Positions 4,685 to 62,603 of a DNA stretch of 64,000 nucleotides are shown here, piece by piece. How positions within the stretch are numbered: the first letter of the stretch is position 1; each line of letters begins with the position of its first letter. Location of the stretch: assembly GCF_002934445.1 (NCBI RefSeq), contig NZ_PTJE01000001.1, positions 558,001-622,000 of the forward strand, written 5' to 3'. Made by a program: the position numbers and the translations under genes. This stretch comes from Nonlabens xylanidelens. GTDB lineage: Bacteria > Bacteroidota > Bacteroidia > Flavobacteriales > Flavobacteriaceae. Under the pieces are notes generated by a model. That model was not told the origin of the DNA, searched no databases, and worked only from the letters and a program-made list of their open reading frames with translations.

Positions 4685-5866
4685 ATGACTATAGACCAGA
4701 TTAATTTTGAGAATAAAAAAGCACTTATAAGAGTTGATTTTAATGTACCTCTAGACGAGAATTTTAAGGTTACTGATGCTACTAGAATTCAGGCAGCAAA
4801 GGACACGATTATTCATGTTTTAGAAAAAGGTGGTTCTGTTATATTGATGTCACATTTAGGACGTCCTAAGAATAAAGAAAATGATTTCTCTTTACGTCAT
4901 GTGGTTGATACAGCCAGTGATATTCTCGGTGTTCAGGTTAAATTTGTAGAAGATTGTATAGGAGAAGTAGCTCAAAAAGCTGCTCAAGATTTACAACCTG
5001 GCGAGGTTTTACTTCTAGAAAACCTGAGATATTATAGTGAAGAGACTGGTGGAGATTCCGCTTTCGCGAAAGCGTTATCACAATTAGGCGACGTATATAT
5101 AAACGATGCTTTTGGAACTGCTCACAGGGCTCATGCTAGTACTGCTGTAATAGCACAATATTTTGAAGAGAAATGTTTTGGACTACTTATGAATCGTGAG
5201 ATCGATAGTCTAGATAAAGTAATGGAAACGCCAGAAAGACCACTAGTTGCTATTTTAGGTGGTGCTAAGGTGTCTTCTAAAATCACGGTTATTGAGAATA
5301 TTCTAACTAAAGTGGATGACTTAATTATAGCTGGTGGTATGGCTTATACGTTTATCAAAGCACAAGGTGGTAAAATAGGTGACTCTCTAGTAGAAGATGA
5401 TAAACAAAGCCTAGCGCTAGAAATTCTTGCTAAAGCTAAAGAAACGAATACCAGAATTCACTTACCGGTAGATGTTGTGATTGCAAATTCTTTTTCTGAA
5501 CTTGCTACTATGGATAAAGCTGCCATAGATCAAATTCCTGATGGCTGGATGGGACTCGATGTAGGAGAGAAATCTAGAGAGCTATTTCATGAAGTGTTAC
5601 AAAGTGCCAAAACTATTCTATGGAATGGACCTGCTGGTGTTTTTGAAATGGAACCGTTTGCAAATGGTACTATCGCCTTAGGTAAGTCTGTTGCAATGGC
5701 AACAAAAAACGGTGCATTCTCGTTAGTAGGTGGTGGTGATAGTGTATCTGCGGTAAAACAATTTGGTTTTGCAGATCAGGTAAGCTATGTTTCTACTGGT
5801 GGTGGCGCCATGCTAGAAATGTTAGAAGGGAAAACACTTCCTGGTATAGCTGCTATTAAGGGATAA
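4685..5866 (+). CDS. pgk: Phosphoglycerate kinase
   Basis: Glycolytic/gluconeogenic enzyme: 1,3-bisphosphoglycerate + ADP to 3-phosphoglycerate + ATP, in the cytosol. Family motifs appear in order: RVDFNVPLD (substrate loop), [55 protein letters not shown] and the nucleotide-binding GGGDS. I start at [12 protein letters not shown] (ATG 4685), giving 393 residues, the normal length. A frame opening at 4655 adds ten atypical residues and overlaps the promoter. A copy of the 16-bp palindrome is read as AFAKA (5059-5074) where PGKs often already have a similar FAKxLA segment. The gene is monocistronic, divergent from holB. Confidence 0.97.
5059..5074. repeat. 16-bp iterated palindrome, copy 1 (in pgk)
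   Basis: Perfect CGCTTTCGCGAAAGCG, read as S-AFAKA-L in pgk. Confidence 0.95.
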
Positions 5867-6046
5867 CCCCATATTTTACAAACAAACTAATTTCTGGCTT
5901 TGCATAATCTTATATGTTTGTGCAAAGCTTATTAGTATAAATATAGTTAGACGTTATTGTCTAAAAAATTCTCACACTTTTACTATTTGTATATCTAAAC
6001 TCATCAAATAGAAAATATTATTTCACAGTAATTACAGAAACAATTC

Positions 6047-7609
6047 ATGAACAAATACCTTTTATTATTACTATCTTCAGTAGTCTTTACACCACTAGCG
6101 GCACAAGTAGAACAAGATTCTACAGCTACTACGGGCAAAGTCATTTCTTATGAAGAGTATAAAAGACAACAAGCTCAAAATGATTCTATAGAATCTGGTA
6201 CTATATTATCTAGAGAAATACCTGTTCAAGAAATAATGATGGATACTACGGTTGCAGGTACGCCACTTATCGTGCATCCTGAGGTAGATGATCTGGATGA
6301 AAAACTACTCAATGAATTGTATAACAATGATTTATATGAGTATATGTACAAAGAGATTGTACAAATGGATTATAGTGAGACGGTAAATCAAACCTTACCT
6401 ACTGACACACTTAAAGCTAGACTAGCAGCGATTAATGAAAGCACGCCTTTCCAGATAGATTACAATCCGGTGCTGGAAAAACTGATCAATAAAAAACTCA
6501 GTTACAAACGTGTTTACATGGAACGTTTGATGACGTTAAGTGATTATTATTTTCCCTTATTTGAGCCTTACTTAGATCAGTACGATATTCCATTAGAGAT
6601 GAAGTACCTGGCTATAGTAGAAAGTGCGTTAGACCCACGTATTAAGAGTAGAGTAGGTGCCACTGGATTATGGCAATTTATGTTTACCACAGGTCGCAAT
6701 TATGATCTAGAAGTAAATTCTTATGTAGATGAGCGCATGGATCCTATAAAATCAACAGTTGCTGCGTGTAAATTCATGAGTAGTTTATATAAAATTTATG
6801 GAGATTGGGATCTAGTTCTCGCGGCTTATAATTCTGGGCCAGGTAATGTAAATAAAGCGATACGTCGCAGTGGTGGTTATAAAAACTACTGGAATATTAG
6901 ACCATATTTGCCACGTGAGACGGCCGGTTATGTACCAGCTTTTCAGGCGATGATGTATCTCTTTACTTATGCTCCAGAACATGGATTCCAGCCGCAACAG
7001 ACTATTTATAAAACTATTGCAACAGACACGATAAGAGTTAAAAGAATGATATCTCTAGAACATGTGTCGCAATTTACAGACCAAGATCTTGAGGTAATAC
7101 AGTTTCATAACCCTTCTTATAAATTAGATATTATTCCTTTTGTAAAGGGTAAAAATCATAACCTGAGACTTCCTGTTAGAGATGCCGCAAAATTTGTTAG
7201 TAATGAGGCTGCTGTGTACGCTTTCGCGAAAGCGGAATTTGACAAAATAGAAAAACCTCTTCCAGAATTGCTAGTTGCAGAAAGCCGATCTGTATATCGA
7301 GTGAAAAATGGTGATTACCTAGGTAAAATAGCTAATAAGTACAACGTAAAAGTTAGCCAATTAAAACGCTGGAATAACTTGAGAAGTAATAATTTGAGAA
7401 TAGGACAAAAGTTATATATACACTCTAGAAAACCAGTAACTACTTCTAAATCTAGCTCTTCAAAAGCGCCAGCCACTTATAAAATTAAAAGTGGAGACAG
7501 TTTATGGAAAATAGCCAATAAATATGGCATATCTATTGCTAGCATACGTAAATTGAATCCTACCACATCTGACGACCTTAAGGTAGGTGCCACCCTTAAA
7601 TTAAAGTAA
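6047..7609 (+). CDS. Lytic transglycosylase with two LysM domains (MltD type)
   Basis: Secreted peptidoglycan-cleaving enzyme that makes 1,6-anhydromuramyl ends. Residues 1-20 are a signal peptide ending at LAAQ. The SLT domain spans about residues 165-310, with catalytic Glu192 in LAIVESALDP followed by GATGLWQFM and LAAYNSGPGNV. Two LysM domains follow at the C-terminus: YRVKNGDYLGKIANKYN (about 405-448) and YKIKSGDSLWKIANKYG (about 475-520), which bind glycan. A copy of the iterated palindrome encodes YAFAKAEF in the linker between the catalytic and LysM parts. One base separates it from the DUF4837 gene, so the two are one operon. Confidence 0.92.
   Translation: MNKYLLLLLSSVVFTPLAAQVEQDSTATTGKVISYEEYKRQQAQNDSIESGTILSREIPVQEIMMDTTVAGTPLIVHPEVDDLDEKLLNELYNNDLYEYMYKEIVQMDYSETVNQTLPTDTLKARLAAINESTPFQIDYNPVLEKLINKKLSYKRVYMERLMTLSDYYFPLFEPYLDQYDIPLEMKYLAIVESALDPRIKSRVGATGLWQFMFTTGRNYDLEVNSYVDERMDPIKSTVAACKFMSSLYKIYGDWDLVLAAYNSGPGNVNKAIRRSGGYKNYWNIRPYLPRETAGYVPAFQAMMYLFTYAPEHGFQPQQTIYKTIATDTIRVKRMISLEHVSQFTDQDLEVIQFHNPSYKLDIIPFVKGKNHNLRLPVRDAAKFVSNEAAVYAFAKAEFDKIEKPLPELLVAESRSVYRVKNGDYLGKIANKYNVKVSQLKRWNNLRSNNLRIGQKLYIHSRKPVTTSKSSSSKAPATYKIKSGDSLWKIANKYGISIASIRKLNPTTSDDLKVGATLKLK
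7219..7234. repeat. 16-bp iterated palindrome, copy 2 (in lytic transglycosylase gene)
   Basis: Perfect CGCTTTCGCGAAAGCG, read as Y-AFAKA-E in the linker before the first LysM domain. Confidence 0.95.
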
Positions 7610-7610
7610 A

Positions 7611-10049: not shown

Positions 10050-11549
10050 ATGTCGTTAAAGTCACTCGGTGCAAAAGTTTTTGCTACCATCATCGATAGA
10101 AAAACTAAAAGTTGGGCTTCTAAACCGGTAGCCTCTCAGGAAAAAGTGTTTCATAATTTAATTAAGACTGCTGGTAATACCGCTTTCGCGAAAGCGCACT
10201 CCTTTTCCAACATAAAAACACATAAAGACTTTGTATCACAAGTACCAGTGCGTGATTATGAAGAATTAAGACCCTTTGTAGATAGAGTAGTAGCTGGTGA
10301 GAGTGATATCTTATGGCCAGGAAAACCCCTTTATTTTGCTAAAACGTCTGGAACTACAAGCGGTGCAAAATATATTCCGATTACCAAAGAGTCGATGCCC
10401 GAGCACATAAAAGCAGCTCGTAATGCGATTTTGAGTTATGTTCATGAAACTGGAAAAGCACAATTTGTAGACGGTAAAATGATTTTCCTACAAGGAAGTC
10501 CAGAGATGGAATCTAAAAATGGAATTCAACTAGGTAGATTAAGTGGTATTGTTGCTCATTATGTTCCTAATTATCTACAAAAGAACAGGTTGCCTTCTAT
10601 GGAAACCAACTGTATAGAAGACTGGGAAACTAAGGTAGAAGCAGTTATTGATGAGACTCTACCAGAAAATATGAGCGTTATTTCTGGAATCCCAAGTTGG
10701 GTACAGATGTATTTTGAACGCATCGTGCAACGTACTGGTAAAAAAGTAGGTGAGGTATTTCCAGAATTTAATCTATTCATTTACGGCGGTGTTAATTTTG
10801 AGCCTTATAGAGCAAAATTTGATCAACTTATAGGTCGTAAAGTAGATAGTATAGAGCTTTTTCCTGCTAGTGAAGGTTTTTTTGCCTATCAAGATAAACA
10901 AGATGAAAAAGGAATGCTTTTGCTTCTAGACGCAGGTATTTTCTATGAATTTATACCAGCAGATCAGTTTCATGATAAAAACGCACCTAGATTAACCATA
11001 GGCGAGGTGGAAACAGGCGTTAATTATGTCATGATCATTTCTACTACAGCAGGATTATGGGCCTATAACATAGGTGATACCATTGCATTTACTAGTACGG
11101 CACCATATAGAGTGGTGGTTACAGGTCGTATAAAACATTACATAAGCGCTAGTGGAGAACATGTTATAGGTAAAGAAGTAGAAGAGGCGATGAAAGCAGC
11201 CTCAAATAAATTGAGTATTGTTATCAATGAATTTACTGTCGCACCACAATTAAGCCCAGCAAATAATGAATTGCCATATCATGAGTGGTTTGTAGAATTG
11301 GGTGATGCTACAAATGTGGATCTTCATAAACTGGCACAAGTACTTGATATTCAAATGAGAGAACAAAACTCTTATTATGACGATTTAATCACTGGTAAGA
11401 TTCTACAACCTTTAATTATCACTGCAGTACCAGAAAATGGTTTTAAAGAATACATGAAAACAATAGGCAAGCTGGGTGGCCAGAACAAACTGCCTCGACT
11501 CTCTAACGATCGTAAGATTGCTGAGGTACTCGAGAAGATTATAGGTTAA
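10050..11549 (+). CDS. GH3-family (auxin-responsive GH3-like) adenylating enzyme
   Basis: 499 residues of the GH3 branch of the ANL adenylate-forming superfamily; plant members join amino acids to acyl acids. The AMP-binding loop TSGTTSGAKYIPIT is at residues 99-112, followed by LFPASEGFFAYQ (substrate pocket) and YNIGDTIAF (adenine/ribose contact, A5-like). The C-terminal lid domain is present. Bacteroidota homologues are common but their substrate is unknown. It directly follows the M23 peptidase with zero spacing. A palindrome copy encodes AFAKA near the N-terminus (residues 45-49). Function beyond acyl adenylation is not assigned. Confidence 0.85.
   Translation: MSLKSLGAKVFATIIDRKTKSWASKPVASQEKVFHNLIKTAGNTAFAKAHSFSNIKTHKDFVSQVPVRDYEELRPFVDRVVAGESDILWPGKPLYFAKTSGTTSGAKYIPITKESMPEHIKAARNAILSYVHETGKAQFVDGKMIFLQGSPEMESKNGIQLGRLSGIVAHYVPNYLQKNRLPSMETNCIEDWETKVEAVIDETLPENMSVISGIPSWVQMYFERIVQRTGKKVGEVFPEFNLFIYGGVNFEPYRAKFDQLIGRKVDSIELFPASEGFFAYQDKQDEKGMLLLLDAGIFYEFIPADQFHDKNAPRLTIGEVETGVNYVMIISTTAGLWAYNIGDTIAFTSTAPYRVVVTGRIKHYISASGEHVIGKEVEEAMKAASNKLSIVINEFTVAPQLSPANNELPYHEWFVELGDATNVDLHKLAQVLDIQMREQNSYYDDLITGKILQPLIITAVPENGFKEYMKTIGKLGGQNKLPRLSNDRKIAEVLEKIIG
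10181..10196. repeat. 16-bp iterated palindrome, copy 3 (in GH3-like gene)
   Basis: Perfect CGCTTTCGCGAAAGCG, read as T-AFAKA-H. Confidence 0.95.
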
Positions 11550-14575: not shown

Positions 14576-15108
14576 ATATAATTGACACACCATTATTAGA
14601 TTGTAAAATTATAGAACCTGCGGTTTTTCCAGATGCTCGTGGCAAATTCTGTATTGCTTTTGATAGTTTCGCTTTCGCGAAAGCGGTACCCAATCAGAAA
14701 CCTTTCATTACCATAAACGAGAGTACTTCTACTTATGGAGTTCTTAGAGGTTTACACCTGCAGAAAGGAGATGCTGCACAAGCAAAATTAGTGCGTTGTA
14801 TACAGGGTAAAATACTAGATGTTGCAGTAGATTTTAGACCAGAATCTTCTACTTATTTAAAGCATTTTTCCATTGAGCTCACAGGAGAAAACAATAAACA
14901 ATTGTTAGTTCCTAGAGGTTTTCTTCATGGCTTTTCTGTACTTTCAGAAACTGCTATCGTAAATTATCAGATAGATAATACGTACCAGCCAGCAACGGAA
15001 TATGGTATACGTTATGATGACCCACAACTTAATATAGACTGGCAATTACCTAAAGAAGATATCATACTTTCTGAAAAGGATGAGAAACTAGGATTTATTA
15101 CATTATAA
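14572..15108 (+). CDS. rmlC: dTDP-4-dehydrorhamnose 3,5-epimerase family protein
   Basis: 178-residue cupin. Diagnostic segments: FPDARGKF at the start, VLRGLHLQ with the catalytic His, KLVRCIQGKILDVAVDFR with the conserved Asp, and VPRGFLHGFSVLS. These fit RmlC, which epimerises C3 and C5 of dTDP-4-keto-6-deoxyglucose. GTG start, overlapping the Wzz-like gene by four bases. The palindrome repeat encodes FAFAKAVP in the loop after the first strand, where the family is variable. Note that rmlA and rmlB are not in this window; they must be elsewhere, or this is an RmlC-like enzyme for another sugar. Confidence 0.87.
   Translation: MNIIDTPLLDCKIIEPAVFPDARGKFCIAFDSFAFAKAVPNQKPFITINESTSTYGVLRGLHLQKGDAAQAKLVRCIQGKILDVAVDFRPESSTYLKHFSIELTGENNKQLLVPRGFLHGFSVLSETAIVNYQIDNTYQPATEYGIRYDDPQLNIDWQLPKEDIILSEKDEKLGFITL
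14670..14685. repeat. 16-bp iterated palindrome, copy 4 (in rmlC)
   Basis: Perfect CGCTTTCGCGAAAGCG, read as F-AFAKA-V. Confidence 0.95.
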
Positions 15109-17283: not shown

Positions 17284-18327
17284 ATGAATAAAGATTCTAA
17301 AATATACGTTGCTGGACATAGAGGTCTTGTAGGAAGTGCTATTGTGACCGAGTTAAAGAAACTAGGTTACAGTAACTTTATTCTACGCACTCATAAAGAG
17401 CTAGATCTTACAAATCAACAAGCGACAGCAGACTTTTTTACTATTGAAAAGCCAGAATATGTATTTCTTGCCGCTGCCAGTGTAGGTGGTATAGTTGCTA
17501 ATAATACCTACAGAGCAGACTTTATTTATAAAAATCTCATGATTCAGAATAACGTGATACATCACAGTTATTTGAATGGAGTGAAGAAATTGTTGTTCTT
17601 AGGAAGCACCTGTATATATCCTAAAATGGCACCACAACCCATGCCAGAAGATAGTTTACTTACTGGGCCATTAGAATACACCAACGAACCTTATGCTGTT
17701 GCAAAAATTGCTGGTATAAAGATGTGCGAGAGTTATAACTTGCAATACGGTACCAACTTCATATCAGTGATGCCTACTAATTTATATGGGCCTAATGATA
17801 ATTTTGATCTTGAAAAATCTCACGTTCTTCCTGCATTGATTAGAAAAATGCACCTAGGTAAATTGCTTATGGAAGGTAAAGAACAAGAATTGTGTAAAGA
17901 TTTAGGTGTTGATAGTTACGCTTTCGCGAAAGCGGAATTACAAAAAAACGGTATCACAGAAAAAGGCATCGCACTATGGGGAACCGGTTCTCCTAAACGT
18001 GAATTTCTATGGTCTCACGACATGGCTAGAGCTTGTGTGTATCTCATGGAAAATATTAATTTTGATGAGGTTAAAGGAACTGATAAAGACATAAGAAACA
18101 CACATCTTAATATAGGAACAGGTGAAGATATCGCTATCAAAGACCTCGCAGAGATGATCAAAACCACCGTAGGCTATCAAGGAAACCTAGATTGGGATGC
18201 TACAAAACCGGACGGTACACCACGCAAGCTTACTGATGTTTCAAAACTACATGAGTTAGGGTGGGAGCATGAGATAGACCTTGAAAAAGGTGTGGAGATG
18301 ATGTATTCGGCTTATTTGAACTCGTAA
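17284..18327 (+). CDS. fcl: GDP-L-fucose synthase
   Basis: 347-residue SDR epimerase/reductase that turns the Gmd product into GDP-L-fucose. Motifs: VAGHRGLVGSAI (NADP binding), ASVGGIVANNTY, FLGSTCIYPK and the catalytic EPYAVAKIAGIKMCE. Compared with the E. coli enzyme (about 321 residues) there is an insertion of roughly 20 residues before WGTGSPKREFLW. The iterated palindrome lies in it, read as YAFAKAEL (residues about 211-218). It works with gmd just upstream. A small overlapping frame at 17906-18094 is a shadow. Confidence 0.95.
   Translation: MNKDSKIYVAGHRGLVGSAIVTELKKLGYSNFILRTHKELDLTNQQATADFFTIEKPEYVFLAAASVGGIVANNTYRADFIYKNLMIQNNVIHHSYLNGVKKLLFLGSTCIYPKMAPQPMPEDSLLTGPLEYTNEPYAVAKIAGIKMCESYNLQYGTNFISVMPTNLYGPNDNFDLEKSHVLPALIRKMHLGKLLMEGKEQELCKDLGVDSYAFAKAELQKNGITEKGIALWGTGSPKREFLWSHDMARACVYLMENINFDEVKGTDKDIRNTHLNIGTGEDIAIKDLAEMIKTTVGYQGNLDWDATKPDGTPRKLTDVSKLHELGWEHEIDLEKGVEMMYSAYLNS
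17919..17934. repeat. 16-bp iterated palindrome, copy 5 (in fcl)
   Basis: Perfect CGCTTTCGCGAAAGCG, read as Y-AFAKA-E inside a family-atypical insertion. It is the last perfect copy before a 9.1-kb gap. Confidence 0.95.
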
Positions 18328-23353: not shown

Positions 23354-24408
23354 TGCAGTTATATCATATTACCGAAGATATTTCTCGAGCTAGTGGTGGT
23401 GTCCGTCCTGTTGTTAAAGTTCTACAATCCCAATTCTACAATTCCCAAATACTTACCACAGAAAAAGATCGTGATGACCTTAACATATTAAGTTTTTCTC
23501 ATAAAGGTCCGTGGTTATATTCTAAAGATCTAAAAATTTATTTAAACACAATAGATAGTAATTCAATATTTCATCTCCATGGAGTATGGATGCATGCGCA
23601 ATATATAGCTGCCAAAATTGCGATAGCGCGTGAAATTCCTTTTATCATTACTCCACATGGTATGTTTGAACCATGGTTGTGGAAAAGTGGTAAGCTCAAA
23701 AAGAAATTATATTTAAAATTATTTACCAGTTCTGCTTTCGCAAAAGCGAGATATTTACATGCTATAACACCAGAAGAGAAAAAAACTTTACAAATTTTAT
23801 TTCCTAAAACTGAAGTTATATGTATTCCCAATGCTATTGAAATAGAAGATGTTATAGATAGAAAGAAGCCTATAAGACCATACTTTCTTTTCTTAGGACG
23901 CGTTCATCCAGTTAAAGGTGTGCAAATGCTTATTGAGGTTTTTAAGACGCTTAAAAGCCTCGATTTCGACCTTGTAATTGCAGGTCCAGAGAGTGAACAT
24001 CGTAATGAATTAGAAGCATTAGCATTTAATGATAAACGTATTAAATTTATAGGAGAAATTAGAGGATTAAAGAAAAAAGAACTTTATAGAAATGCACATA
24101 CATTTGTTGCTCCTAGCTACTCTGAAGTAGTAGGTATGGTAAATCTAGAAGCAGCGATGATGGGTACGCCGGTAATTACAACATTTCAAACTGGATTACT
24201 GAAAGAATGGGGGAATAACGGAGGCATACTTATTAATCCTATTTTTAATGAATTGAAAACAGCTCTAGTAGAAGCGTCAAAATGGAACGATCAACAAAGA
24301 AAATTGAACGGTAATAAGTTGCGTAATTTTATGATTCAAGAATATTCTTGGAAGGTAAATAAGCCTAAATGGGAAGCGCTTTATAACTCTATGAAAAAAA
24401 AGATATGA
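23353..24408 (+). CDS. Glycosyltransferase, GT4 family
   Basis: 351 residues. GT-B enzyme: N-terminal DISRASGGVRPVVKVLQ, HGVWMHAQYIAAKIA and TPHGMFEPWLWKSGKLKK; C-terminal donor domain FLGRVHPVKGVQMLIEVF, VIAGPESEH, and APSYSEVVGMVNLEAAMMGTP, where SEVVGMVNLEA corresponds to the EX7E nucleotide-sugar-binding loop. It contains the only palindrome-like sequence of the core locus, a two-mismatch copy read as SAFAKARY (23733-23748). It overlaps both neighbours (TAATG before, ATGA after), so the region is tightly coupled. Confidence 0.88.
   Translation: MQLYHITEDISRASGGVRPVVKVLQSQFYNSQILTTEKDRDDLNILSFSHKGPWLYSKDLKIYLNTIDSNSIFHLHGVWMHAQYIAAKIAIAREIPFIITPHGMFEPWLWKSGKLKKKLYLKLFTSSAFAKARYLHAITPEEKKTLQILFPKTEVICIPNAIEIEDVIDRKKPIRPYFLFLGRVHPVKGVQMLIEVFKTLKSLDFDLVIAGPESEHRNELEALAFNDKRIKFIGEIRGLKKKELYRNAHTFVAPSYSEVVGMVNLEAAMMGTPVITTFQTGLLKEWGNNGGILINPIFNELKTALVEASKWNDQQRKLNGNKLRNFMIQEYSWKVNKPKWEALYNSMKKKI
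23733..23748. repeat. Degenerate copy of the 16-bp palindrome (in GT4 gene)
   Basis: TGCTTTCGCAAAAGCG differs at two positions from CGCTTTCGCGAAAGCG and still encodes AFAKA. Confidence 0.8.
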
Positions 24409-26310: not shown

Positions 26311-27519
26311 TTGAAAGAAAAACACATCACATTCATAGGTCTTAACTATGCACCAGAAGATACTGCCATCGGTTTGTATTCTACTCAAATGGTAGAAGCA
26401 CTAATTGATACTGGCGCGCAAGTAAACGTTGTTACAGCCTTTCCTTATTATCCACAATGGAAAATCGCTCAGGAATATCGAGATAGGCCTAACTACATTC
26501 AAGAAGATCATAAAGGAGCAAAATTGTATCGTTACAAACAGTACGTTCCAGAACAACCTACTTTTTTAAAGCGTGTAATTCATATTTTAAGTTTTACTAA
26601 AGGGAGTTTCTTCAATCTGAGAAAGATTAAGCATACAGATCTTGTAATTTCTATCGTACCATTCACAGCTAGCGCCTGGTTAGGTAGTTACCATGCTAAA
26701 AAACACAAGGCTCAAAGCTGGATTCATATTCAGGATTTTGAATTTGACGCAGCATTGCAATCAGGACTTTCTAGTGGTGGTAAAAAGTTTATTTTTAAAT
26801 TTTTATTTGGTCTTGAACGTCGCATTTTCAATAAAGCAAATGTTATAAGCACGATCAGTCATAACATGATTGATAAGTTAAAGTCCAAAACTAGCCAGCC
26901 TACTTATTATTTACCCAACTGGATTGATGAGAGTCAGGTAAATCCAGCTACGGCAAAGCAACATGATTACTTAAAAAGTAATAAATTTAAACTTCTTTAT
27001 AGCGGTAACGTCGGTGATAAACAGGATTGGGATTATTTTCTCGCTTTCGCGAAAGCGTTACCACAACAATCTTATGAGATTATAATTGTAGGTGCTGGAG
27101 CAAAATACCAGCAATTAAAAGAAAGCATTCAACAAGAAAACATCGATTTTTACGATCCAGTTCCTTTTGAGGATTTATCAGATTTACTTTGCAGTGCAGA
27201 TGCCCATTTTCTATTCCAAAAAACAGAAGTGCTAGATACCGTAATGCCCTCAAAATTGTTAGGCATGATGGCGAGTGAAAAACCGTCATTAATTCTTGGA
27301 AACAAAGCAAGCGAAGTAAAAACAGTAATGGAAAATGCAAATGCAGGACTTTATTTTTCTAAACCAGATGTACAAACTGCAGTAGATCAATTAGAAAAAT
27401 GGCGACTTGATTCTGATTTGAGAAAGTCCATGGGAAAAGAAGCGAGAGAATATGTTGTAAAGCACTTTTCTCGTAAAGAGATTTTGAATAATTGGGTTCA
27501 TAAACTTTCTCAATTATAG
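26311..27519 (+). CDS. wcaI: WcaI-type glycosyltransferase
   Basis: 402 residues, TTG start. N-terminal GLNYAPEDTAIGLYSTQMVEAL and VVTAFPYYPQWKI are hallmark segments of colanic acid WcaI-like GT4 enzymes, and IHIQDFEFDAALQSG follows. The donor domain starts near LLYSGNVGDKQDWDYFLAFAKALP, where the palindrome copy encodes AFAKA in the first donor-domain helix. The later LFQKTEVLDTVMPSKLLGMMA replaces the usual EX7E with a related loop. Last gene of the locus; a hairpin element follows at 27556. Confidence 0.88.
   Translation: MKEKHITFIGLNYAPEDTAIGLYSTQMVEALIDTGAQVNVVTAFPYYPQWKIAQEYRDRPNYIQEDHKGAKLYRYKQYVPEQPTFLKRVIHILSFTKGSFFNLRKIKHTDLVISIVPFTASAWLGSYHAKKHKAQSWIHIQDFEFDAALQSGLSSGGKKFIFKFLFGLERRIFNKANVISTISHNMIDKLKSKTSQPTYYLPNWIDESQVNPATAKQHDYLKSNKFKLLYSGNVGDKQDWDYFLAFAKALPQQSYEIIIVGAGAKYQQLKESIQQENIDFYDPVPFEDLSDLLCSADAHFLFQKTEVLDTVMPSKLLGMMASEKPSLILGNKASEVKTVMENANAGLYFSKPDVQTAVDQLEKWRLDSDLRKSMGKEAREYVVKHFSRKEILNNWVHKLSQL
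27042..27057. repeat. 16-bp iterated palindrome, copy 6 (in wcaI)
   Basis: Perfect CGCTTTCGCGAAAGCG, read as L-AFAKA-L. First perfect copy after the 9.1-kb gap. Confidence 0.95.
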
Positions 27520-38400: not shown

Positions 38401-40351
38401 TGTCTTCTATCTCTAGATTAGAAACGATGTCTATTAAAAGCTCGAGATCTTCAGCAATTTGATTCACTTCTTTCTCAAGATTTTTAATCTCGATCACTTT
38501 TTTTGTGTCGTCTAGTGCATTTTGTTTTTCTGCAACAGCATCGTGATAAGGAGCGAGTGCTTTATCATCGAGTAAAAAAGTAACCGCACGACGTGAGATC
38601 ACTTCATTTTGTTCTACGATTTGCTCCTCGATTCCTTTGATGAAATCGGTATCTACATAACGTATTTCATAAAGTCCTATCGCTTCACCTCGCAAACTGC
38701 GCAACTGAGTTAATAGCTCTACAAAATCATTGATAGACTTAAATGAGGTGCTTTTAATTTTACTAAAAAGCTCATCTGCCTTTTTAGAAATATCTTTAGT
38801 ATCTGCAGCTGCTTGTTTACGCAGTTGTTTTACTTTCTCAAACTCGTCAATTGCTGCGTTAGACGCTTTGTTGATCTCGTTAAGAGGTAGATTAATTTGT
38901 TTAGTTTCTTCTTCAGGCAACCAGTAATAGGCATCTAGAATATCTTTTGAAGAACGTGCAATGTCATCATATAAACCACCATAACTATCTTCTTTGTTAA
39001 GAAGCGTGAGCAGCTCATTTGCCTGCGCCATGGCTTTAACAATATCCTTGTTACCTATCTTAAATAACATCGTGTCTTGATGCTCAGACGGCATGATATT
39101 ACCTTTTAAATATGGTGTTTGCCATATTTGCATCATGTGATGCTTGGTCTGTTCATCTTCTGTTCGGAAATAACACAACTCACCTTGTTCTAAAATCGTA
39201 AATCCATTACAAACGATAGGTGTCTTTACCGTTTGATCAATCACATTGTAAGACATGAGTACATACAATCCCTGCGCAGCATTATAAAACACATACAAAT
39301 GATCTTCACCATTAGGTGATGCGATTCTTTGCTGAAATTTTAATTTACCAGCATCGCTAGGGAATACGTTATACTCTCCAGTTTGCAAGTAATAACCACT
39401 CGGGAAAATAATACCTTGATCATCTGGTAGCAATACTGCAGCCTCTGCAATACTATTGATGCGTTCTACTTCCTTAATCTTGTGGTTGTACACAAAATAA
39501 CGAGGCTCTTCTTGAAACGGCTTTATTTCTAGAACAATAAGATTGCCTAAATCGGCATAACGATATTGCCCGTCATCTAGTGTCTGGTCGCGGTGTTCTA
39601 CATCTTCACGATAAATTCCCTGACCATCGTCGGTATTATCTTCAACCTTTATGGTTAAATCACCACCTATAGTTTCTACAAAAACCTTGTCTAGAATCGA
39701 TACATGTCCATGCACACCAGCACGTTGATTATCGCGTCCAGCCTCTTTCCACTGGAAACCATATTGCGCTGGAAAACGATATTCATGCTCACTACGGTTA
39801 TCCACATATTGCAAACCGTCGTCAGTTATCAACCACTTAAAAGTCTTGATGTCGGTAACCGAATCACTGAGCTGAAATACCATATGCAGGTAATTCCCCA
39901 TAATCGCAAACTTGGAAAATATCGTGTTGCGATAGTATTTGTACAGATTTTCAAAATCAGTCTGAAAAATAGGATCTGTGATGAGGTTTAATTTGTTCCC
40001 GCTTTCGCGAAAGCGTAACACATCACCATCCACACCGTCACGATCAAACTCATAGATACTAAAAACATCGCTCAATTGCATCTCAGTGCGCAATCCTAGA
40101 TGCACGTTGTACCCAAAGATGCTGTATTTACCGATGGTCACGATGTCACGAGCGATACAGTTATTTTCTGTATTCACGCGGTCGTTTGCAATCAATCGAG
40201 TTTCTAGAGAACCGAAGACCTTTTTACGTTCTTCATTAAGCTCATTAAGTCGCTGCTGCAAGTCATTCTTTTGCTTGAGCAGTCGGCTCTGGATGATCTC
40301 GTAGGTTCCTGAGTCTAATTGTGTAGTATCTTTTATATCTTTTTCTGCCAT
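35477..40351 (-). CDS. Giant AAA+ ATPase (annotated elsewhere as DNA repair ATPase), PspA/flotillin-associated
   Basis: 1624 residues, no signal peptide or membrane segment. Layout: short coiled coil (about 15-45), a beta-rich region resembling repeated blades (about 60-440), long coiled coils with repeated K/E/L pattern (about 480-850), a mixed region, then an AAA+ domain near residues 1230-1450. Walker A SPPGYGKTTL is at about 1264, Walker B VMLYLDDIQH (Asp-Asp rather than Asp-Glu), sensor-1 VIMAGNPYT, and the arginine candidate is in PDMLANRADIYNLGD. I recall such proteins as 'DNA repair ATPase' next to flotillin genes in many genomes; the DNA repair name has no support here. Context (PspA, flotillin, NfeD-like protein) suggests ATP-driven work at membranes. 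Two palindrome copies lie in it, read as SAFAKAD and LRFRESG. Confidence 0.8.
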   Translation of the reverse strand: MAEKDIKDTTQLDSGTYEIIQSRLLKQKNDLQQRLNELNEERKKVFGSLETRLIANDRVNTENNCIARDIVTIGKYSIFGYNVHLGLRTEMQLSDVFSIYEFDRDGVDGDVLRFRESGNKLNLITDPIFQTDFENLYKYYRNTIFSKFAIMGNYLHMVFQLSDSVTDIKTFKWLITDDGLQYVDNRSEHEYRFPAQYGFQWKEAGRDNQRAGVHGHVSILDKVFVETIGGDLTIKVEDNTDDGQGIYREDVEHRDQTLDDGQYRYADLGNLIVLEIKPFQEEPRYFVYNHKIKEVERINSIAEAAVLLPDDQGIIFPSGYYLQTGEYNVFPSDAGKLKFQQRIASPNGEDHLYVFYNAAQGLYVLMSYNVIDQTVKTPIVCNGFTILEQGELCYFRTEDEQTKHHMMQIWQTPYLKGNIMPSEHQDTMLFKIGNKDIVKAMAQANELLTLLNKEDSYGGLYDDIARSSKDILDAYYWLPEEETKQINLPLNEINKASNAAIDEFEKVKQLRKQAAADTKDISKKADELFSKIKSTSFKSINDFVELLTQLRSLRGEAIGLYEIRYVDTDFIKGIEEQIVEQNEVISRRAVTFLLDDKALAPYHDAVAEKQNALDDTKKVIEIKNLEKEVNQIAEDLELLIDIVSNLEIEDTSHSTKIIENISLIFATINQVKAAIKNKVKTVGKKEAQADFAAQLKLIDQSIINYLDIANTPEKCDEFLTKVSIQLEELEGKFADYEEYITEIIGKREEVYAAFDNRKSSLVEARNKKAMAFQNAAERILKGVQKRAQSLDSVTEINGYFASDLMINKVRDIVVQLKDLDDAGKAEAIETALKVAREDALRKLKDKNELYEDGDNIIKLGKHKFGVNKQQLDLTIVFKDNALFYHLTGTDFYQELHNEILTQSQGIWNQDLVSENNQVYRSAYLAYSIFKSGDKEALRIMSPADLLTTVQEIASGNYSGGYVKGVHDHDAAQYLSVLLHKHHDLGLLTYDPDTRAQAQFYWNALDTKHQSNLNRILKSAGEVLSVFPDSKEYDFIIEELADEIFKTSESANSLSIASYLFNELKDNDHFTVSTSAIQLKEAFEKKIKSQNADLKFKKSLEACEDEKSKVELVRHWVSAFAKADSKQSLLTYVNECVANILYGELTADKTVAISPSENINGLKGSHQTIEEGVFVFNYHEFVHTLEHFTTIKVPAYETFRKAKQEVTEELKESLRLEEFKPRVLSSFVRNKLIDQVYFPLIGDNLAKQLGTVGDTKRTDRMGLLLLISPPGYGKTTLMEYVANRLGLIFMKINGPAIGHEITSVDPEAATNAATREELKKLNLAFEMGDNVMLYLDDIQHCNPEFLQKFISLSDGTRKIEGVYNGKPKTYDLRSKKFCVIMAGNPYTESGDKFQIPDMLANRADIYNLGDIIGDTAHLFELSLVENALTSNPVLQQLSNKHFDDVYALIDRVQNGASDNELKGNHSNQEIADYVAVLEKVLKIRDTVLKVNQTYIASAGMEDTYRTEPSFKLQGSYRDMNKLVAKVVPIMDDKELQTLLLSHYESESQTLTSAAEANLLKYKELVNTITTEEQQRWENIKGIFAKNNKLSGLGGQNQMSQVLSQMMDFTENLEGIKEVLRKGLSK
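36986..37001. repeat. 16-bp iterated palindrome, copy 9 (in AAA+ gene)
   Basis: Perfect core, read as S-AFAKA-D on the minus strand. Confidence 0.95.
40000..40015. repeat. 16-bp iterated palindrome, copy 10 (in AAA+ gene)
   Basis: Perfect core in another frame, read as L-RFRES-G on the minus strand. Confidence 0.95.
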
Positions 40352-43942: not shown

Positions 43943-44653
43943 CTAGGCTTTACTCACTAAAAAATAGTTCTTATCATCAGATCGTTTGATGATGAGCACG
44001 CTTTCGCGAAAGCGTAATTCTGATCCATCTAAAGATTTTACATAGATACTCATCAAGTTACCATCTGCCATGACCTCTGCATTACCTAATTTATCTCCAG
44101 AAATAGAAGATAAAAGTAAGGCTTCACGACCTAAAAAGTCTACTGCTTTGTCTCCATCTTTATTCAAATTTTTGAAAAAGGATTTAAATGGTGTGGTGAT
44201 CACTTTAGTCAGTATTAAGGCTGGTACAAATGCCGCAAGAACAATTACATATCCAAATGAGTTGTCATAACTACTGGTTATAATTGTGGTAAGTACGGAT
44301 GATATCCACCAGATAAAAATCCAAAACGTAAATGTGAACATGAATGGCAGGCCTACAAAGTTGAAGTAGATCAAAAAGACTTGCCACCATTTAAGTTTAC
44401 GCGTGCGTTTATTTACCACGTGCTCACGATCAACTTCAGCATTTGCAACATCTTGAAAATCCATATTTCCACCTTCTAGACCAGTGTCTAGATCAATGTC
44501 TGCATCTATATCTACGTCTACGTCCACATCGATGTCCAGGTCAAAATCGATACCTGAAATCATGGTAGCAAGCCAGTATAGAATGAGAATGATCAACAAC
44601 ACGGTAAGTGTGATGTTCACTTCAGAGAATAATATGTTGAAATAGTTTTCCAA
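43943..44653 (-). CDS. NfeD/YqiJ-like membrane protein with OB-fold and Asp-rich tract
   Basis: 236 residues. First membrane helix at about 15-33, then an acidic tract of alternating Asp with I/V/A/L (about residues 36-58, pattern D-x-D-x). Two more membrane helices lie at about 93-125 and 133-152. The C-terminal soluble part from about 165 (DFLGREALLLSSIS, LMSIYVKSLDGSEL) has the beta pattern of the OB-fold found in NfeD/YqiJ partners of flotillins. It lies immediately upstream of the two SPFH genes in the same operon. A palindrome copy encodes ELRFRESVL in the OB-fold. Confidence 0.83.
   Translation of the reverse strand: MENYFNILFSEVNITLTVLLIILILYWLATMISGIDFDLDIDVDVDVDIDADIDLDTGLEGGNMDFQDVANAEVDREHVVNKRTRKLKWWQVFLIYFNFVGLPFMFTFTFWIFIWWISSVLTTIITSSYDNSFGYVIVLAAFVPALILTKVITTPFKSFFKNLNKDGDKAVDFLGREALLLSSISGDKLGNAEVMADGNLMSIYVKSLDGSELRFRESVLIIKRSDDKNYFLVSKA
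43999..44014. repeat. 16-bp iterated palindrome, copy 11 (in NfeD-like gene)
   Basis: Perfect core, read as L-RFRES-V on the minus strand. Confidence 0.95.
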
Positions 44654-46395: not shown

Positions 46396-46710
46396 AGGTT
46401 TTAATTGGCAGGTTTAATATTACGAAAAAGCTTATTGTAATCCCACTAAAATTTGGGTAGCTATTTCAATAACATATATAATAATGGGTATCATAGTTTT
46501 TTAGTTTAAGGTTATCTCGCTTTCGCGAAAGCGTAAATAGCAACGGCCTATTGCATTATTACAGTGGTTTTAAAAAACAATTGTTCTAAAAAGGTTGGTA
46601 CATTTTTAGAACTTTTGCTCAAAATATTAGTGTAAATAAAATCATTTAGCTAATATTGTTAGTGTAAATATACATAATATTTTAATATTTGCAAATAAAA
46701 TTAGCAAAAT
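46396..46710. promoter_or_regulatory. Divergent regulatory region of the island
   Basis: It holds a palindrome copy (46518-46533), a 12-base direct repeat TTAGTGTAAATA at 46627-46638 and 46659-46670 (32 bases apart, three helical turns), and the palindrome TATTTGCAAATA at 46686-46697, 13 bases before the XRE ATG. AATATTTG within the latter is one base off a -7 box. The repeats are good candidate operators for the XRE protein. Confidence 0.55.
46518..46533. repeat. 16-bp iterated palindrome, copy 12 (intergenic)
   Basis: Perfect core between the island and its divergent regulator gene; not followed by a T-run. Confidence 0.95.
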
Positions 46711-47466
46711 ATGTCATTTTTCGGAAAGAACATAAAAAAAATACGTGGCGTTAAAGGGTTAAGTCAGCAGGCATTTGCAGACCTATTTGATTTAAAGAGA
46801 GGTACTTTAGGTGCTTATGAAGAAGGTAGGAGTGAGCCTAAGATAGATACTATAATTCTTATTGCTAATTATTTTAGCATTGCTATAGGAGATATGCTCA
46901 CTGCAGAATTAACCGTAAATCAGCTCTTGCGATTTAACGATAGTCTTACTTTAACACCAGAAGAATTAGAGAGAGAGCAGTTTGCACAAATACCTTGTAT
47001 TACAGAAAAAACGGCACATGATTATATAGAATATTATGACAACGATGCTTTTCTTGCCGATTTACCTACACTTACATTACCGCTCAATACAGAAAAGGAC
47101 TTTATAGGTTATACGGTGACTAACTTAGAAATGACAACGCATGACAAAGGACTGTTTCCTAAAGATGTAGTGATAGGTGAGAAGGTGCCTAAAAATGTAA
47201 TTACAAAACTTAATAATGGAACTGTAGTTCTTGCGGTAACTGATAAGACACTTATTCTAAGAAGGCTGTATATTACAGACAAGGGGCTGGTCCTGAGAGC
47301 AGATCACAAAAATGTTGATGATATTACTGTAGATAAAAAAGCTGTGAAACAATTGTGGCGTGTGCGTTATGTGTTCTTTAGAAGAATGCCTGACTTTTCT
47401 GACAGTATGGAAGATAAAATGGCTTTTCTAGAAGCGCAAATGAAGGAGTTGAGAGATTCTATTTAA
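46711..47466 (+). CDS. XRE-family regulator with catalytically dead S24-like domain
   Basis: 251 residues. The N-terminal helix-turn-helix (about 5-60) reads IKKIRGVKGLSQQAFADLFDLKRGTLGAYEEGRSEPKIDTI. The C-terminal part (about 115-225) follows the LexA/S24 peptidase layout (FIGYTVTNLEMTTHDKGLFPKDVVIGEKV, then VVLAVTDKTLILRRLYI), but the serine expected in the G-D-S-M-x-P segment is replaced (N-L-E-M), so self-cleavage is unlikely. A short coiled coil ends the protein. It is divergent from the PspA-flotillin island and probably controls it. A similar degenerate S24 domain could act as ligand sensor. Confidence 0.82.
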   Translation: MSFFGKNIKKIRGVKGLSQQAFADLFDLKRGTLGAYEEGRSEPKIDTIILIANYFSIAIGDMLTAELTVNQLLRFNDSLTLTPEELEREQFAQIPCITEKTAHDYIEYYDNDAFLADLPTLTLPLNTEKDFIGYTVTNLEMTTHDKGLFPKDVVIGEKVPKNVITKLNNGTVVLAVTDKTLILRRLYITDKGLVLRADHKNVDDITVDKKAVKQLWRVRYVFFRRMPDFSDSMEDKMAFLEAQMKELRDSI

Positions 47467-50644: not shown

Positions 50645-51861
50645 TGAATTTTTCTCTTTACATAGCGCGACGTTACCTCGTTTCAAAAAATGGCAAAAAC
50701 GCCATTAACATTATCAATATCCTTAGTTTTATTATTACTGTAGTAGGGACTGCGGCACTATTTATTGTGCTTTCTGGCTTTTCAGGACTCAAGGATTTTA
50801 GTACAGAATTTTCAAATTATTTTGATCCAGACCTTAAAATTTTACCGGTAAAAGGTAAGACTGTTTCTATTCCGCTTTCGCGAAAGCGAGAACTTGAAAA
50901 AATCCCTGGAGTAGAATTAATATGTGCTGTTATAGAAGAAAAGGCGTTTTTGAACTATGAAGAGAAAAACGACATAGCTTTTATAAAAGGGGTTCCTGAT
51001 GATTATGTGAACATGATCCAGCCAGATTCTATTTTATATTACGGTAGCTGGTTATCTAAAAGCGATGCGCAAGTAGTAGCAGGATACTCACTAGCTTCTC
51101 GATTATCACTTACTGTAAATAACTATGGTAGTTACATGCAAATTATGGTGCCTAAACCAGGTACTAATGCTATTAATAAATTAAATATAAGTAGTTCATT
51201 TTCTAGAATGGATGCCATACCTGTAGGAACTTTTAGCGTTAATGAGGCACTGGATAGCAAGTACATTTTTACAAGAATAAGTGCAGCACGACAATTATTA
51301 CAAATGGACGATTCTACAGCTAGTGCTGTTGAGGTAAAATTATCTCCTACGGCAAGCGAGAACGATGTGCGCAGGGCGATTAATGATGTTTTTAAAGAGC
51401 CTATTAAGATTAAGGATAAATTCCAGATGAATGATGCGCTTTATAAAATGCTTAATTCAGAAAATCTAGTCGTTTATTTAATCTTTACACTGGTCTTAAT
51501 TATTGCATTATTTAATGTAGTAGGTAGTATTATCATGATGATTCTTGATAAGAAGAAGAATATGAAAACCTTGTTAGACCTAGGCGCACCGGTTGCGTCA
51601 TTGCGCAAGATATTTTTTATACAAGGTAGTCTTATGACACTTTCTGGTGGTGTGATAGGTCTTGTTATTGGAGTAATATTTGTAGTGTTACAAGTGGAGT
51701 ATAAACTGGTTTACATAGCACCTGGTTTACCTTATCCGTTTGCGATGGATTTTTGGAATGTGATTATATCTCTGGCAACTATTACCGTATTAGGAATAAT
51801 CGCCAGTTATATAGGTTCTAGAAGAATAAATGATCGTTTGCTTTCTCAGGCAAAATTATGA
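50644..51861 (+). CDS. LolC/LolE-type ABC transporter permease
   Basis: 405 residues, GTG start overlapping the rbfA stop by one base. The N-terminus YIARRYLVSKNGKNAINIIN and first helix (about 22-48) are typical of LolC/E; a large periplasmic MacB-like domain follows (about 50-260), then three helices (about 273-300, 322-350, 372-392) of the FtsX domain. Such proteins release lipoproteins from the inner membrane with LolD; no ATPase gene is adjacent. The palindrome copy is in its third reading frame here (IPLSRKREL). The 3' end overlaps convergent dusB by 16 bases. Confidence 0.88.
   Translation: MNFSLYIARRYLVSKNGKNAINIINILSFIITVVGTAALFIVLSGFSGLKDFSTEFSNYFDPDLKILPVKGKTVSIPLSRKRELEKIPGVELICAVIEEKAFLNYEEKNDIAFIKGVPDDYVNMIQPDSILYYGSWLSKSDAQVVAGYSLASRLSLTVNNYGSYMQIMVPKPGTNAINKLNISSSFSRMDAIPVGTFSVNEALDSKYIFTRISAARQLLQMDDSTASAVEVKLSPTASENDVRRAINDVFKEPIKIKDKFQMNDALYKMLNSENLVVYLIFTLVLIIALFNVVGSIIMMILDKKKNMKTLLDLGAPVASLRKIFFIQGSLMTLSGGVIGLVIGVIFVVLQVEYKLVYIAPGLPYPFAMDFWNVIISLATITVLGIIASYIGSRRINDRLLSQAKL
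50873..50888. repeat. 16-bp iterated palindrome, copy 13 (in LolC/E-type gene)
   Basis: Perfect core, read as P-LSRKR-E, the only copy in this frame. Confidence 0.95.
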
Positions 51862-52868: not shown

Positions 52869-52884
52869 CGCTTTCGCGAAAGCG
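52869..52884. repeat. 16-bp iterated palindrome, copy 14 (intergenic, dusB-trhO)
   Basis: Perfect core extended to a 22-bp palindrome (TTC...GAA, 52866-52887). Confidence 0.95.
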
Positions 52885-57243: not shown

Positions 57244-57259
57244 CGCTTTCGCGAAAGCG
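57244..57259. repeat. 16-bp iterated palindrome, copy 15 (intergenic)
   Basis: Perfect core, extended to 22 bp (TTC...GAA). Confidence 0.95.
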
Positions 57260-57814: not shown

Positions 57815-57830
57815 CGCTTTCGCGAAAGCG
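57815..57830. repeat. 16-bp iterated palindrome, copy 16 (intergenic)
   Basis: Perfect core 571 bases after copy 15, the only close pair in the window. Confidence 0.95.
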
Positions 57831-57917: not shown

Positions 57918-58931
57918 ATGGCAGACGATAAAGAGAAAGAAGCAAAATTAAAAGCCCTTAAATTAACCCTTGATAAGCTGGATAAGGCTTACGGTAAGGG
58001 AACGGTAATGAAAATGGGTGATAAGCAAGTTGTTGAGGTAGAATCTATTTCTACTGGTTCACTTGCCTTAAACGCAGCTTTGGGTGTAGGTGGTTATCCA
58101 CGAGGTAGAGTTATTGAAATTTATGGACCAGAATCTTCTGGTAAAACAACTTTAACCTTACACGCAATAGCAGAATGTCAAAAAGCAGGTGGTATCGCAG
58201 CATTTATTGATGCTGAGCACGCTTTTGACCGTTTCTATGCAGAGAAGCTAGGTGTTGATCTGGATAATTTAATTATTTCACAACCAGATAATGGAGAACA
58301 AGCTCTAGAAATTGCAGATAACCTAATACGCTCGGGAGCAATAGACATAATAGTAGTAGACTCTGTAGCAGCACTTACTCCTAAAAGTGAGATAGAAGGT
58401 GAGATGGGAGATAGTAAAATGGGTCTTCATGCTCGTTTAATGTCACAAGCACTAAGAAAACTTACAGGTTCTATTTCTAAAACTAACTGTACGGTTATAT
58501 TTATTAATCAGTTACGTGAGAAAATAGGTGTAATGTTCGGTAATCCAGAGACTACAACTGGTGGTAATGCCTTGAAATTTTACGCTTCTGTAAGACTAGA
58601 TATAAGAAGATCTACACAAATTAAAGATAGTAGTGGTGCCGTGTTAGGTAACAAGACTCGTGTAAAAGTGGTGAAGAATAAAGTAGCACCACCATTTAGA
58701 ATGGCCGAATTTGATATCATGTACGGTGAAGGTGTTTCTAAACTAGGAGAAATTATCGACTTAGGTGTTAATTATGAAATCATCAATAAGGCTGGTTCAT
58801 GGTTCTCTTATGAAGATACTAAACTAGGACAAGGTCGCGACTCTGTTAAGACTATTCTTAAGGATAATCCAGATCTAGTAGAAGAGTTAGAAGTTAAAAT
58901 TATGGATTCTATAAAGGCTATAAGTAACTAG
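57918..58931 (+). CDS. recA: Recombinase RecA
   Basis: 337 residues. Walker A GPESSGKT at 70-77, Walker [11 protein letters not shown], the L1/L2 DNA loops ([39 protein letters not shown]) and the C-terminal domain are complete. It carries out strand exchange and triggers LexA cleavage; partner of DprA in transformation. N-terminal extension [24 protein letters not shown] is normal for Bacteroidota. Terminator downstream. Confidence 0.98.
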
Positions 58932-58953: not shown

Positions 58954-58988
58954 AAAACCGCTCTCTTTAAAAAGAAGCGGTTTTTTTT
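58954..58988 (+). terminator. recA terminator
   Basis: AAAACCGC (58954-58961) pairs with GCGGTTTT (58977-58984) and is followed by a T-run. Confidence 0.8.
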
Positions 58989-59043
58989 ATAACTAGACGC
59001 AACCTTTTATATAAGTGAGCATCTATAATGTATAATACTGAAA

Positions 59044-59466: not shown

Positions 59467-59480
59467 TTGAATTTTAAATT

Positions 59481-60029: not shown

Positions 60030-60031
60030 TT

Positions 60032-61654: not shown

Positions 61655-61753
61655 ATCACTAGCAGTCATTGTGAGCTAGTTAAGATTTCAGTGAAAAAGA
61701 AAAAGAAGAATATTGAGGTTGGTTATTGAAACTCAATTTTTGCAATGATGATG

Positions 61754-61785
61754 AAAAACCGTTTCCGTGCCATGGAGCGGTTTTT
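61754..61785 (+). terminator. Terminator between barrel gene and plsC
   Basis: AAAAACCG (61754-61761) pairs with CGGTTTTT (61778-61785), with an inner CC/GG pair; suited to both strands. Confidence 0.7.
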
Positions 61786-61790
61786 CTATT

Positions 61791-62603
61791 TTAAGCCTTT
61801 TCTAGAGAGTGAAGAATGATGTTTCTTACGCTTTCGCGAAAGCGTGCCTTATCCTCCATCACCTTCATACCTACCGTCTCAATAGGGGCATGAGTTTCTG
61901 CTCTCATAATCCCAGGACTACCTCCCCAAAAGTGGAAAGGAAATCGTTTTTTATTATCGTATAAAGTAACTGGTAATAAAGGTATTTGATGCTCTATGGC
62001 TAGTCTAAATGCACCATCCTTAAAAGGATCTAAAACCACATTTAAATCGTCAGAAACGCCGCCTTCCGGAAAAATACAAATCCCAACACCATCTTGCATG
62101 CGCTGTCTAGCACGATCAAAAACCTCTTTTCTACTTCTAGGATTTTTTCTATCCACTAGAATACAAGTACGCTTATAGAAAAAACCAAAAACAGGAATCT
62201 TAGAAAGCTCTTTTTTACCTACAAAGACAAAAGGGTTTTTAGAGATCAACAACATCATCATAATGTCAGTCATACTCGTGTGGTTGGCAACCAGCATATA
62301 ACTTTGATTCTTTTTCATGGGTTGGGCACGCTTAATAACTGGCCAGAAACCCATTCCATAGATAATTATTGCCGACCAAAATCGAGCTACCTTAAAGAAT
62401 AAATGATACGTTTTTTCTGAAATAGTAAGCAGTACCAGTAAGGGAAACATAATAATAATAGGTACACCCATTAAAATATAAAACCATACTCGGTACAAAG
62501 GCATCAATATGTAGCGCATCCATTTCAAGGTATCAAAAATAGAAGAATTTATGACTTTATGGACATCTATTTCTATGGATCTACTTAAAATAATTGCCCT
62601 CAT
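61791..62603 (-). CDS. plsC: 1-acyl-sn-glycerol-3-phosphate acyltransferase
   Basis: 270 residues. Membrane segment at about 36-60, then the acyltransferase motifs: NHTSMTD (H108, D113: the HX4D pair), GKKELSKIPVFGFFYKRT, and FPEGGVSDD (PEG substrate site). It makes phosphatidic acid from lysophosphatidic acid. The first 28 residues are atypical; a start at MRYILMPLYRVWFY (62519) is possible. Palindrome copy near the C-terminus encodes ARFRESVR. Confidence 0.88.
   Translation of the reverse strand: MRAIILSRSIEIDVHKVINSSIFDTLKWMRYILMPLYRVWFYILMGVPIIIMFPLLVLLTISEKTYHLFFKVARFWSAIIIYGMGFWPVIKRAQPMKKNQSYMLVANHTSMTDIMMMLLISKNPFVFVGKKELSKIPVFGFFYKRTCILVDRKNPRSRKEVFDRARQRMQDGVGICIFPEGGVSDDLNVVLDPFKDGAFRLAIEHQIPLLPVTLYDNKKRFPFHFWGGSPGIMRAETHAPIETVGMKVMEDKARFRESVRNIILHSLEKA
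61829..61844. repeat. 16-bp iterated palindrome, copy 17 (in plsC)
   Basis: Perfect core, read as A-RFRES-V on the minus strand. Confidence 0.95.

Follow-up and report, generated by a model that had tools for sequence, protein, structure and literature searches.

Why does one 16-bp palindrome, CGCTTTCGCGAAAGCG, recur every few kilobases in the DNA of Nonlabens xylanidelens? The question was raised by a 64-kb stretch of this flavobacterium (contig NZ_PTJE01000001.1, positions 558,001 to 622,000; hereafter the window), in which the perfect 16-mer is present in exactly 17 copies, with no copy at one mismatch and a single copy at two; in dinucleotide shuffles of the window, matches allowing up to three mismatches averaged 0.14. 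We found that the palindrome is iterated throughout the genome and its genus. The even spacing of the copies, the adherence of near-copies to this spacing and the persistence of the positions between species are newly found here. Our preferred answer, offered tentatively and at somewhat less than even odds, is that CGCTTTCGCGAAAGCG with its symmetric flanks is a self-recognition signal of natural transformation resembling the DNA uptake sequences (DUS) of other bacteria.

The original prediction, made from the window alone, had proposed counting the 16-mer over the full genome and its relatives and comparing it with a codon-preserving shuffle, and both checks bore out the excess. The complete genome (3.28 Mb) contains 579 perfect copies, about one per 5.7 kb, compared with 0 for the reversed control, which rules out a window-local artefact; when up to two mismatches were allowed, the number of copies was 747. 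In a sample of 464 kb consisting of the window and 20 further stretches, we counted 79 perfect, 22 one-mismatch and 9 two-mismatch copies. All 23 Nonlabens genomes searched were rich in the element (180-737 copies; e.g., 464 in N. tegetincola, 602 in N. dokdonensis, 423 in BBFL7 and 422 in N. xiamenensis). When 397 Flavobacteriaceae genomes were drawn, 48 had a match, comprising four Nonlabens, one genome with 630 copies, genome G234 with 153 and 42 genomes with 1-13. A second count took in 32 genomes that had been chosen, among the matches listed, for having a match and are no census; they comprised 11 Nonlabens/BBFL7 genomes (180-602 copies), 12 Dokdonia genomes including D. sinensis (138-711), 'Cytophagaceae' SAT149 (162) and eight others (1-6). 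The copy number can differ between near relatives: G022 has 255 copies and G019 has 653, although both are single-contig genomes of about 2.9 Mb and sisters among the seven Nonlabens in a tree of metG. This contrast suggests that loss is under way in G022 or that gain has occurred in G019.

Synonymous-codon shuffles of 400 genes (411 kb) yielded a mean of 0.155 copies and a maximum of 2 in 200 shuffles, compared with the 43 coding copies observed, and thus chance or codon usage was ruled out as the origin of the palindrome. In addition, the peptides AFAKA, RFRES and LSRKR occurred 30, 14 and 10 times, whereas 0.14, 0.03 and 0.07 occurrences were expected from residue frequencies. Taken together, the shuffles and the peptide excess imply that the constraint sits in the DNA.

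Symmetric flanks, rich in T/G on the left and in A/C on the right, extend the palindrome into a longer element of which it forms the core. In the intergenic left flanks, T was found at -3, -9, -6 and -12 with frequencies of 0.86, 0.74, 0.62 and 0.60, respectively, pyrimidines at -1 and -2, and C was scarce between -3 and about -19; because the counts were symmetrised, the right flank mirrors the left as its complement. The pattern was present in both the 91 intergenic and the 137 coding sites, being weaker near the core in the latter. Among one-mismatch copies from three Nonlabens sets, 39 of 55 differed at the first or last base. Moreover, the copies were over-represented between genes, with gene context taken from simple, uncurated calls of open reading frames (ORFs) of at least 90 aa: 36 of the 79 sites in the N. 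xylanidelens sample were intergenic, compared with 11.6% of bases (P = 4e-14), the remaining 43 being coding, and the corresponding values were 38 of 88 sites against 10.6% in G002 and 17 of 62 against about 10% at other Nonlabens loci. Among 87 intergenic sites, 42 lay no more than 60 bp from a stop codon, and 42 preceded a start codon by at most 100 bp. In the N. xylanidelens sample the density in convergent regions (7 sites in 6.1 kb) was about twice that in tandem (20 in 32.9 kb) and divergent (7 in 10.9 kb) ones, whereas in G002 it was not higher (convergent, 5 in 11.8 kb; tandem, 24 in 24.4 kb; divergent, 8 in 12.6 kb). A role as transcription terminator is weakened, since the sites are not restricted to convergent regions and lie near starts as often as near stops.

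The copies were spaced far more evenly than expected. For 74 consecutive copies on contig 1 of genome G000, the coefficient of variation (CV) of the gaps was 0.488, compared with 0.98 under random placement, and none of the 73 gaps was shorter than 1.5 kb, compared with 18 expected. A model allowing at most one copy per gene gave 13.6 short gaps (minimum 3 in 5000 runs) and did not reproduce this evenness. In the window, too, the spacing was more regular than chance would give (P = 0.0018), and so it was in G004, G018 (CV 0.489) and Dokdonia pacifica (CV 0.495), where 0 of 5000 random runs each were as even. The evenness was weak in D. sinensis (11 gaps, P = 0.036) and not significant on contig 2 (26 copies, P = 0.15); the lists for contigs 1 and 2 were complete and the others held the first copies of each genome. 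At the same time, only 1 of 70 copies with one or two mismatches lay within 1 kb of a perfect copy, compared with 30-37% expected, and therefore the near-copies act as members of the same array. On the complete G002 chromosome, 23 of 24 samples contained copies (2-7 per 20 kb), which for this genome rejects confinement to one chromosome region; the site-free sample was a 20-kb stretch with nonribosomal peptide synthetase (NRPS) genes. One gap of 26 kb without sites is tolerated as well.

The sites of the window are listed below; no strand is assigned to the palindrome copies, and the two genes at the end are given as context only.

5059..5074: perfect 16-mer, coding, frame 3 (AFAKA)
7219..7234: perfect copy in an ORF, frame 3; same sequence in G005 and G009
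10181..10196: perfect copy in an ORF, frame 3; same sequence in G005, G009 and G015
14670..14685: perfect copy in an ORF, frame 3; same sequence in G002, substitutions in G005 and G009
17919..17934: perfect copy in an ORF, frame 3; same sequence in G002 and G015
23733..23748: two-mismatch copy TGCTTTCGCAAAAGCG, inside the widest gap between the window's perfect copies
27042..27057: perfect copy in an ORF, frame 3; same sequence in G002, G005 and G009
30348..30363: perfect copy in an ORF, frame 3; same sequence in G002, G005 and G009
33986..34001: perfect copy in the gene of a TonB-dependent receptor, frame 3
36986..37001: perfect copy in the gene of a DUF3686 ATPase, frame 3
40000..40015: perfect copy in the same DUF3686 ATPase gene as 36986, frame 1 (RFRES)
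43999..44014: perfect copy in an ORF, frame 1
46518..46533: perfect copy, intergenic, an S24/HTH_3 gene following after about 180 bp
50873..50888: perfect 16-mer, coding (FtsX-like permease), frame 2
52869..52884: perfect 16-mer, intergenic
57244..57259: perfect 16-mer, intergenic
57815..57830: perfect copy, intergenic, recA following after about 90-100 bp
61829..61844: perfect copy in an ORF, frame 1; same sequence in G013, G010, G009, G002 and G005
27729..28826, + strand: dprA (PF02481), transformation-associated
57918..58931, + strand: recA (PF00154)

All 17 perfect copies named in the original prediction were thus found at exactly the starts it gave. The four that it had called intergenic (46518, 52869, 57244 and 57815) indeed fall outside the ORFs, and the dprA gene that it had placed in the window was recognised by its PF02481 match.

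The positions of the sites persist between species. When the window was compared with five other Nonlabens, 33 of 46 alignable site pairs were identical, whereas control 16-mers taken from these alignments predicted 2.9. This count covers only sites with alignable flanks (G014 and G019 gave none) and may favour conserved places; the near-identical G013, whose aligned sites were perfect in 7 of 7 cases, was excluded, and site 33986 had no alignable orthologue among the loci compared. Orthologous sites without a perfect copy differed mostly by substitution. At two sites (17919 in G005 and G009; 36986 in G005) a repeat with GAGCTTGTCGAAGTG stood beside the palindrome or replaced its half; in the orthologues of 17919 a repeat insert, 21 bases longer, replaced the left half. 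Upstream of recA, at a distance of about 100 bp, 10 of 21 Nonlabens had a perfect copy, five a copy with one mismatch, two with two and one with three, and three had none, as compared by distance from recA and not by alignment. In metG, the first 15 bases of the palindrome, CGCTTTCGCGAAAGC, were found at the same codons, encoding RFRES, in 13 of 15 carriers (from Nonlabens, Dokdonia, D. sinensis, SAT149 and G234), three of which had the perfect 16-mer; the exceptions, G000 and G009, have RFREA with other codons. By comparison, 15 genomes with 0-13 copies had RFREA (14) or RFREG (1), also with other codons. Judged from these sequences, the metG site either predates the split of Nonlabens, the Dokdonia group and G234 or may have moved along with metG; in the one-gene metG tree, the key supports for the relation of Nonlabens to the Dokdonia group are 39-60.

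Copies are also present in some phage DNA. A scan of IMG/VR with the palindrome returned 41 stretches, some of which (guanine-cytosine content 0.54-0.67) probably match by chance; the typing below is based on a few proteins of a few contigs. A Mu-like contig of 37 kb (TerL, Portal_Mu, Mu F and DUF3164 families) carries six copies, approximately the host density, two of them within the terminase and portal genes. In relatives of this phage one copy was retained with 0-1 mismatch, and two others were absent or changed. Among related contigs of a tailed-phage type, with portal, major head and tape-measure proteins, each longer member contains several copies and one of these longer members has a Phage_integrase match; the negatives of a text-pattern search for integrases carry little weight, since it overlooked one integrase detected by Pfam. 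The Nonlabens phages P12024S and P12024L (35.7 kb each), which have no annotated integrase and which we take to be lytic, contained no copy even at three mismatches, whereas the host density would predict 6.3 per phage (P = 0.002 for a single phage; the two are near relatives and count as about one observation). This rejects the notion that every Nonlabens phage needs the site. In DNA examined as recently acquired, copies were absent from the 20-kb NRPS stretch and the two Nonlabens phages, and present in some phage contigs and in a metal-efflux-like island described below.

An uptake signal, one of the roles considered in the original prediction, fits these observations best owing to the conserved positions, the intergenic excess, the AT-type flanks and the competence genes, although the function remains putative. 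We infer a receptor, uptake and fragment-level selection behind the spacing. Duplex DNA carrying a copy would be bound by part of the Flavobacteriaceae-type competence machinery, at the cell surface or in the periplasm; Nonlabens and Dokdonia DNA would be preferentially taken up and recombined, restoring the chromosomal copies by molecular drive plus selection. If one copy per few-kilobase fragment suffices and the long element is costly, nearby extra copies would not be kept, and an even array could result. The earlier idea of a selfish sequence would survive only in the sense of such molecular drive, whereas insertion is at odds with the orthologues examined, which differ mostly by substitution.

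Transformation of Riemerella anatipestifer requires eight proteins, including ComEC, DprA, ComF and RecA as well as a protein with DUF5689 and the CarboxypepD_reg protein next to it (PMC8459023). We detected ComEC in 18 of 18 Nonlabens searched and DUF5689 in 22 of 23, and the DUF5689 gene adjoins that of a CarboxypepD_reg protein; DprA and RecA are encoded in the window itself. R. columbina prefers its own DNA; k-mers of up to 10 bp gave only A/T-rich candidates there, and that study left the signal open (PMC7965970). The DUS of Neisseriaceae and the uptake signal sequences (USS) of Pasteurellaceae combine a high copy number, AT-rich flanks, high exact conservation, change by point mutation, a spacing that fits recombined fragments and different motifs in related lineages (PMC2397512, PMC7811141). 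The Nonlabens element shares with them hundreds of near-exact copies in coding and intergenic DNA with an excess in the latter, flanks of AT type that surround a core richer in GC, stringent conservation, substitutional change, the accompanying competence genes and possible dialects. The exact conservation of Neisseria DUS over all aligned genomes is 71% (PMC2397512), a measure related but not identical to our 33 of 46. Even spacing of DUS/USS was claimed by Karlin, as cited in PMC1939737.

Several points weigh against an uptake signal. DUF5689 and ComEC are also found in genomes without the element and therefore give no account of specificity, and some temperate-type phage contigs carry copies. 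The element, whose uptake role is putative, differs from DUS/USS in being a palindrome of 16 bp with symmetric surroundings, very evenly spaced, sparser and located in Bacteroidota. According to PMC1939737, known DUS/USS are not palindromes and their very even spacing is disputed. In Haemophilus influenzae, 23% of USS lie no more than 100 bp from another, and with about one per kb USS are denser than the one per 5.7 kb found here (PMC7811141).

The spacing is the observation for which a chromosome-organising protein, the main rival and also among the roles named in the original prediction, would account most directly. A candidate dimeric or tetrameric nucleoid protein could bind the symmetric element and organise, segregate or insulate DNA at intervals of a few kilobases, and we consider this possible but rather unlikely. 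It would explain the non-random gaps (CV 0.49 vs 0.98 on contig 1) and the avoidance of perfect copies by near-copies, the presence of sites in 23 of 24 G002 samples and the copies in some temperate-type phage contigs, and a long symmetric site suits an oligomer. With similar reserve, the element can be pictured as a ruler: a symmetric site of about 40-50 bp, set at few-kilobase intervals for an undescribed binder, which would predate the Nonlabens/Dokdonia split, have been copied into temperate prophages and fix residues of core proteins. However, the near relatives G022 and G019 differ more than twofold in copy number, the 26-kb gap and the 20-kb NRPS stretch are tolerated, and no candidate protein was found. 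Nor is a ParB/Noc paralogue supported as the reader, since ParB_N gave one match in 20 of 23 Nonlabens, with additional long-frame copies only in G014, G018 and G019. The parS and Noc consensus sequences are palindromes with TTTC...GAAA arms, and the element resembles them in length and arms; unlike them, it has an inner spacer of 2 bp instead of 4, some 580 copies and no regional exclusion in the samples of one chromosome. Even spacing would not be expected of a Chi-like signal for an AddAB-type helicase-nuclease, active from both sides because palindromic, which we regard as improbable. Known Chi sites are short and asymmetric; our element departs from them in its length and symmetry as well as its spacing and intergenic excess, and a 16-bp palindrome read as a single strand could fold. 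In favour of Chi, the element is about as dense as Chi is in E. coli (1008 copies in 4.64 Mb; PMC1939737) and has a T/G-rich 5' flank whichever strand is read; a UvrD/AddA-like helicase was also found, and a PDDEXK_1 protein in 30 of 30 genomes, yet the same enzyme family also occurs in genomes without the element.

The two remaining explanations draw on the palindromic, iterated character of the element. The original prediction had suggested a methylase site on account of the TCGCGA core, and cyanobacterial highly iterated palindromes (HIPs), likewise GC-rich, do accompany matching methylases (PMC4390886). The target of an orphan DNA methyltransferase, as for HIP1, is nevertheless very unlikely here: among methylase families, PF01555 and PF00145 were the two searched, and they had no match in N. 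xylanidelens, G007 and G009 and were sporadic in Nonlabens (12 and 14 of 23, respectively), so neither is a conserved partner. Furthermore, the conserved unit of 16 bp plus flanks by far exceeds the length of a usual methylase site, and the element is twice as long as HIP1 and evenly spaced. A mobile repeat inserted at many places, similar to repetitive extragenic palindromes (REP) or miniature inverted-repeat transposable elements (MITE), would also be palindromic, interspersed and enriched between genes. We consider it the least probable of all, as the orthologues without a perfect copy mostly show substitutions and not the loss of 16 or more bases, the outer flanks are not verbatim repeats and 43 of the 79 copies in the N. 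xylanidelens sample are coding. An insertion element was accordingly rejected, the examined sites showing mostly in-place substitutions instead of empty sites.

If the palindrome is an uptake signal, it would be the first identified in Bacteroidota, as far as the searched literature shows, and a palindromic one. No report of the 16-mer or of such an element in Flavobacteriia was encountered in that literature, most subscription papers being outside its coverage. An uptake signal would also be a ready bait for the receptor of outer-membrane DNA entry; in this family, proteins whose function is unknown take part in that entry (PMC8459023). If the palindrome is a spacing site, it would represent a new and quantitatively regular layer of chromosome organisation. 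On either reading, a DNA signal forces peptides as well as a residue difference (Ser vs Ala) within a protein that is conserved, and one oligonucleotide makes up the testable unit.

Some neighbouring genera showed a strong excess of shorter motifs, of the form TTC-N-GAA (CTTCGGAA/TTCCGAAG and TTCAGAAA), on both strands and in several frames (genomes G145 and G029 and genus g95). In 240 kb each, CTTCGGAA occurred 114 times in G145 (14.2 expected) and 44 times in G330 (5.4 expected). Among ten genera sampled at 40 kb, its excess was clear in two (G029 and G145) and not clear in the other eight, and it was also present in genus g95 (80 kb). The gaps between these motifs were about random, and therefore this is not the same phenomenon in full; the motifs are possibly dialects of an uptake signal.

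In several other Flavobacteriaceae genera, most of the 16-mers in the regions read were found at recurring distances in a metal-efflux-like island with RND-like and copper-ATPase-like genes, these names being given by sequence resemblance only and the regions having been chosen for holding copies. Such copies are consistent with a transferred island that may have originated from Nonlabens/Dokdonia-type carriers. Finally, the S24 and HTH_3 gene of the window (46711-47466), a non-canonical LexA-like gene, has a copy of the palindrome upstream, as recA does.

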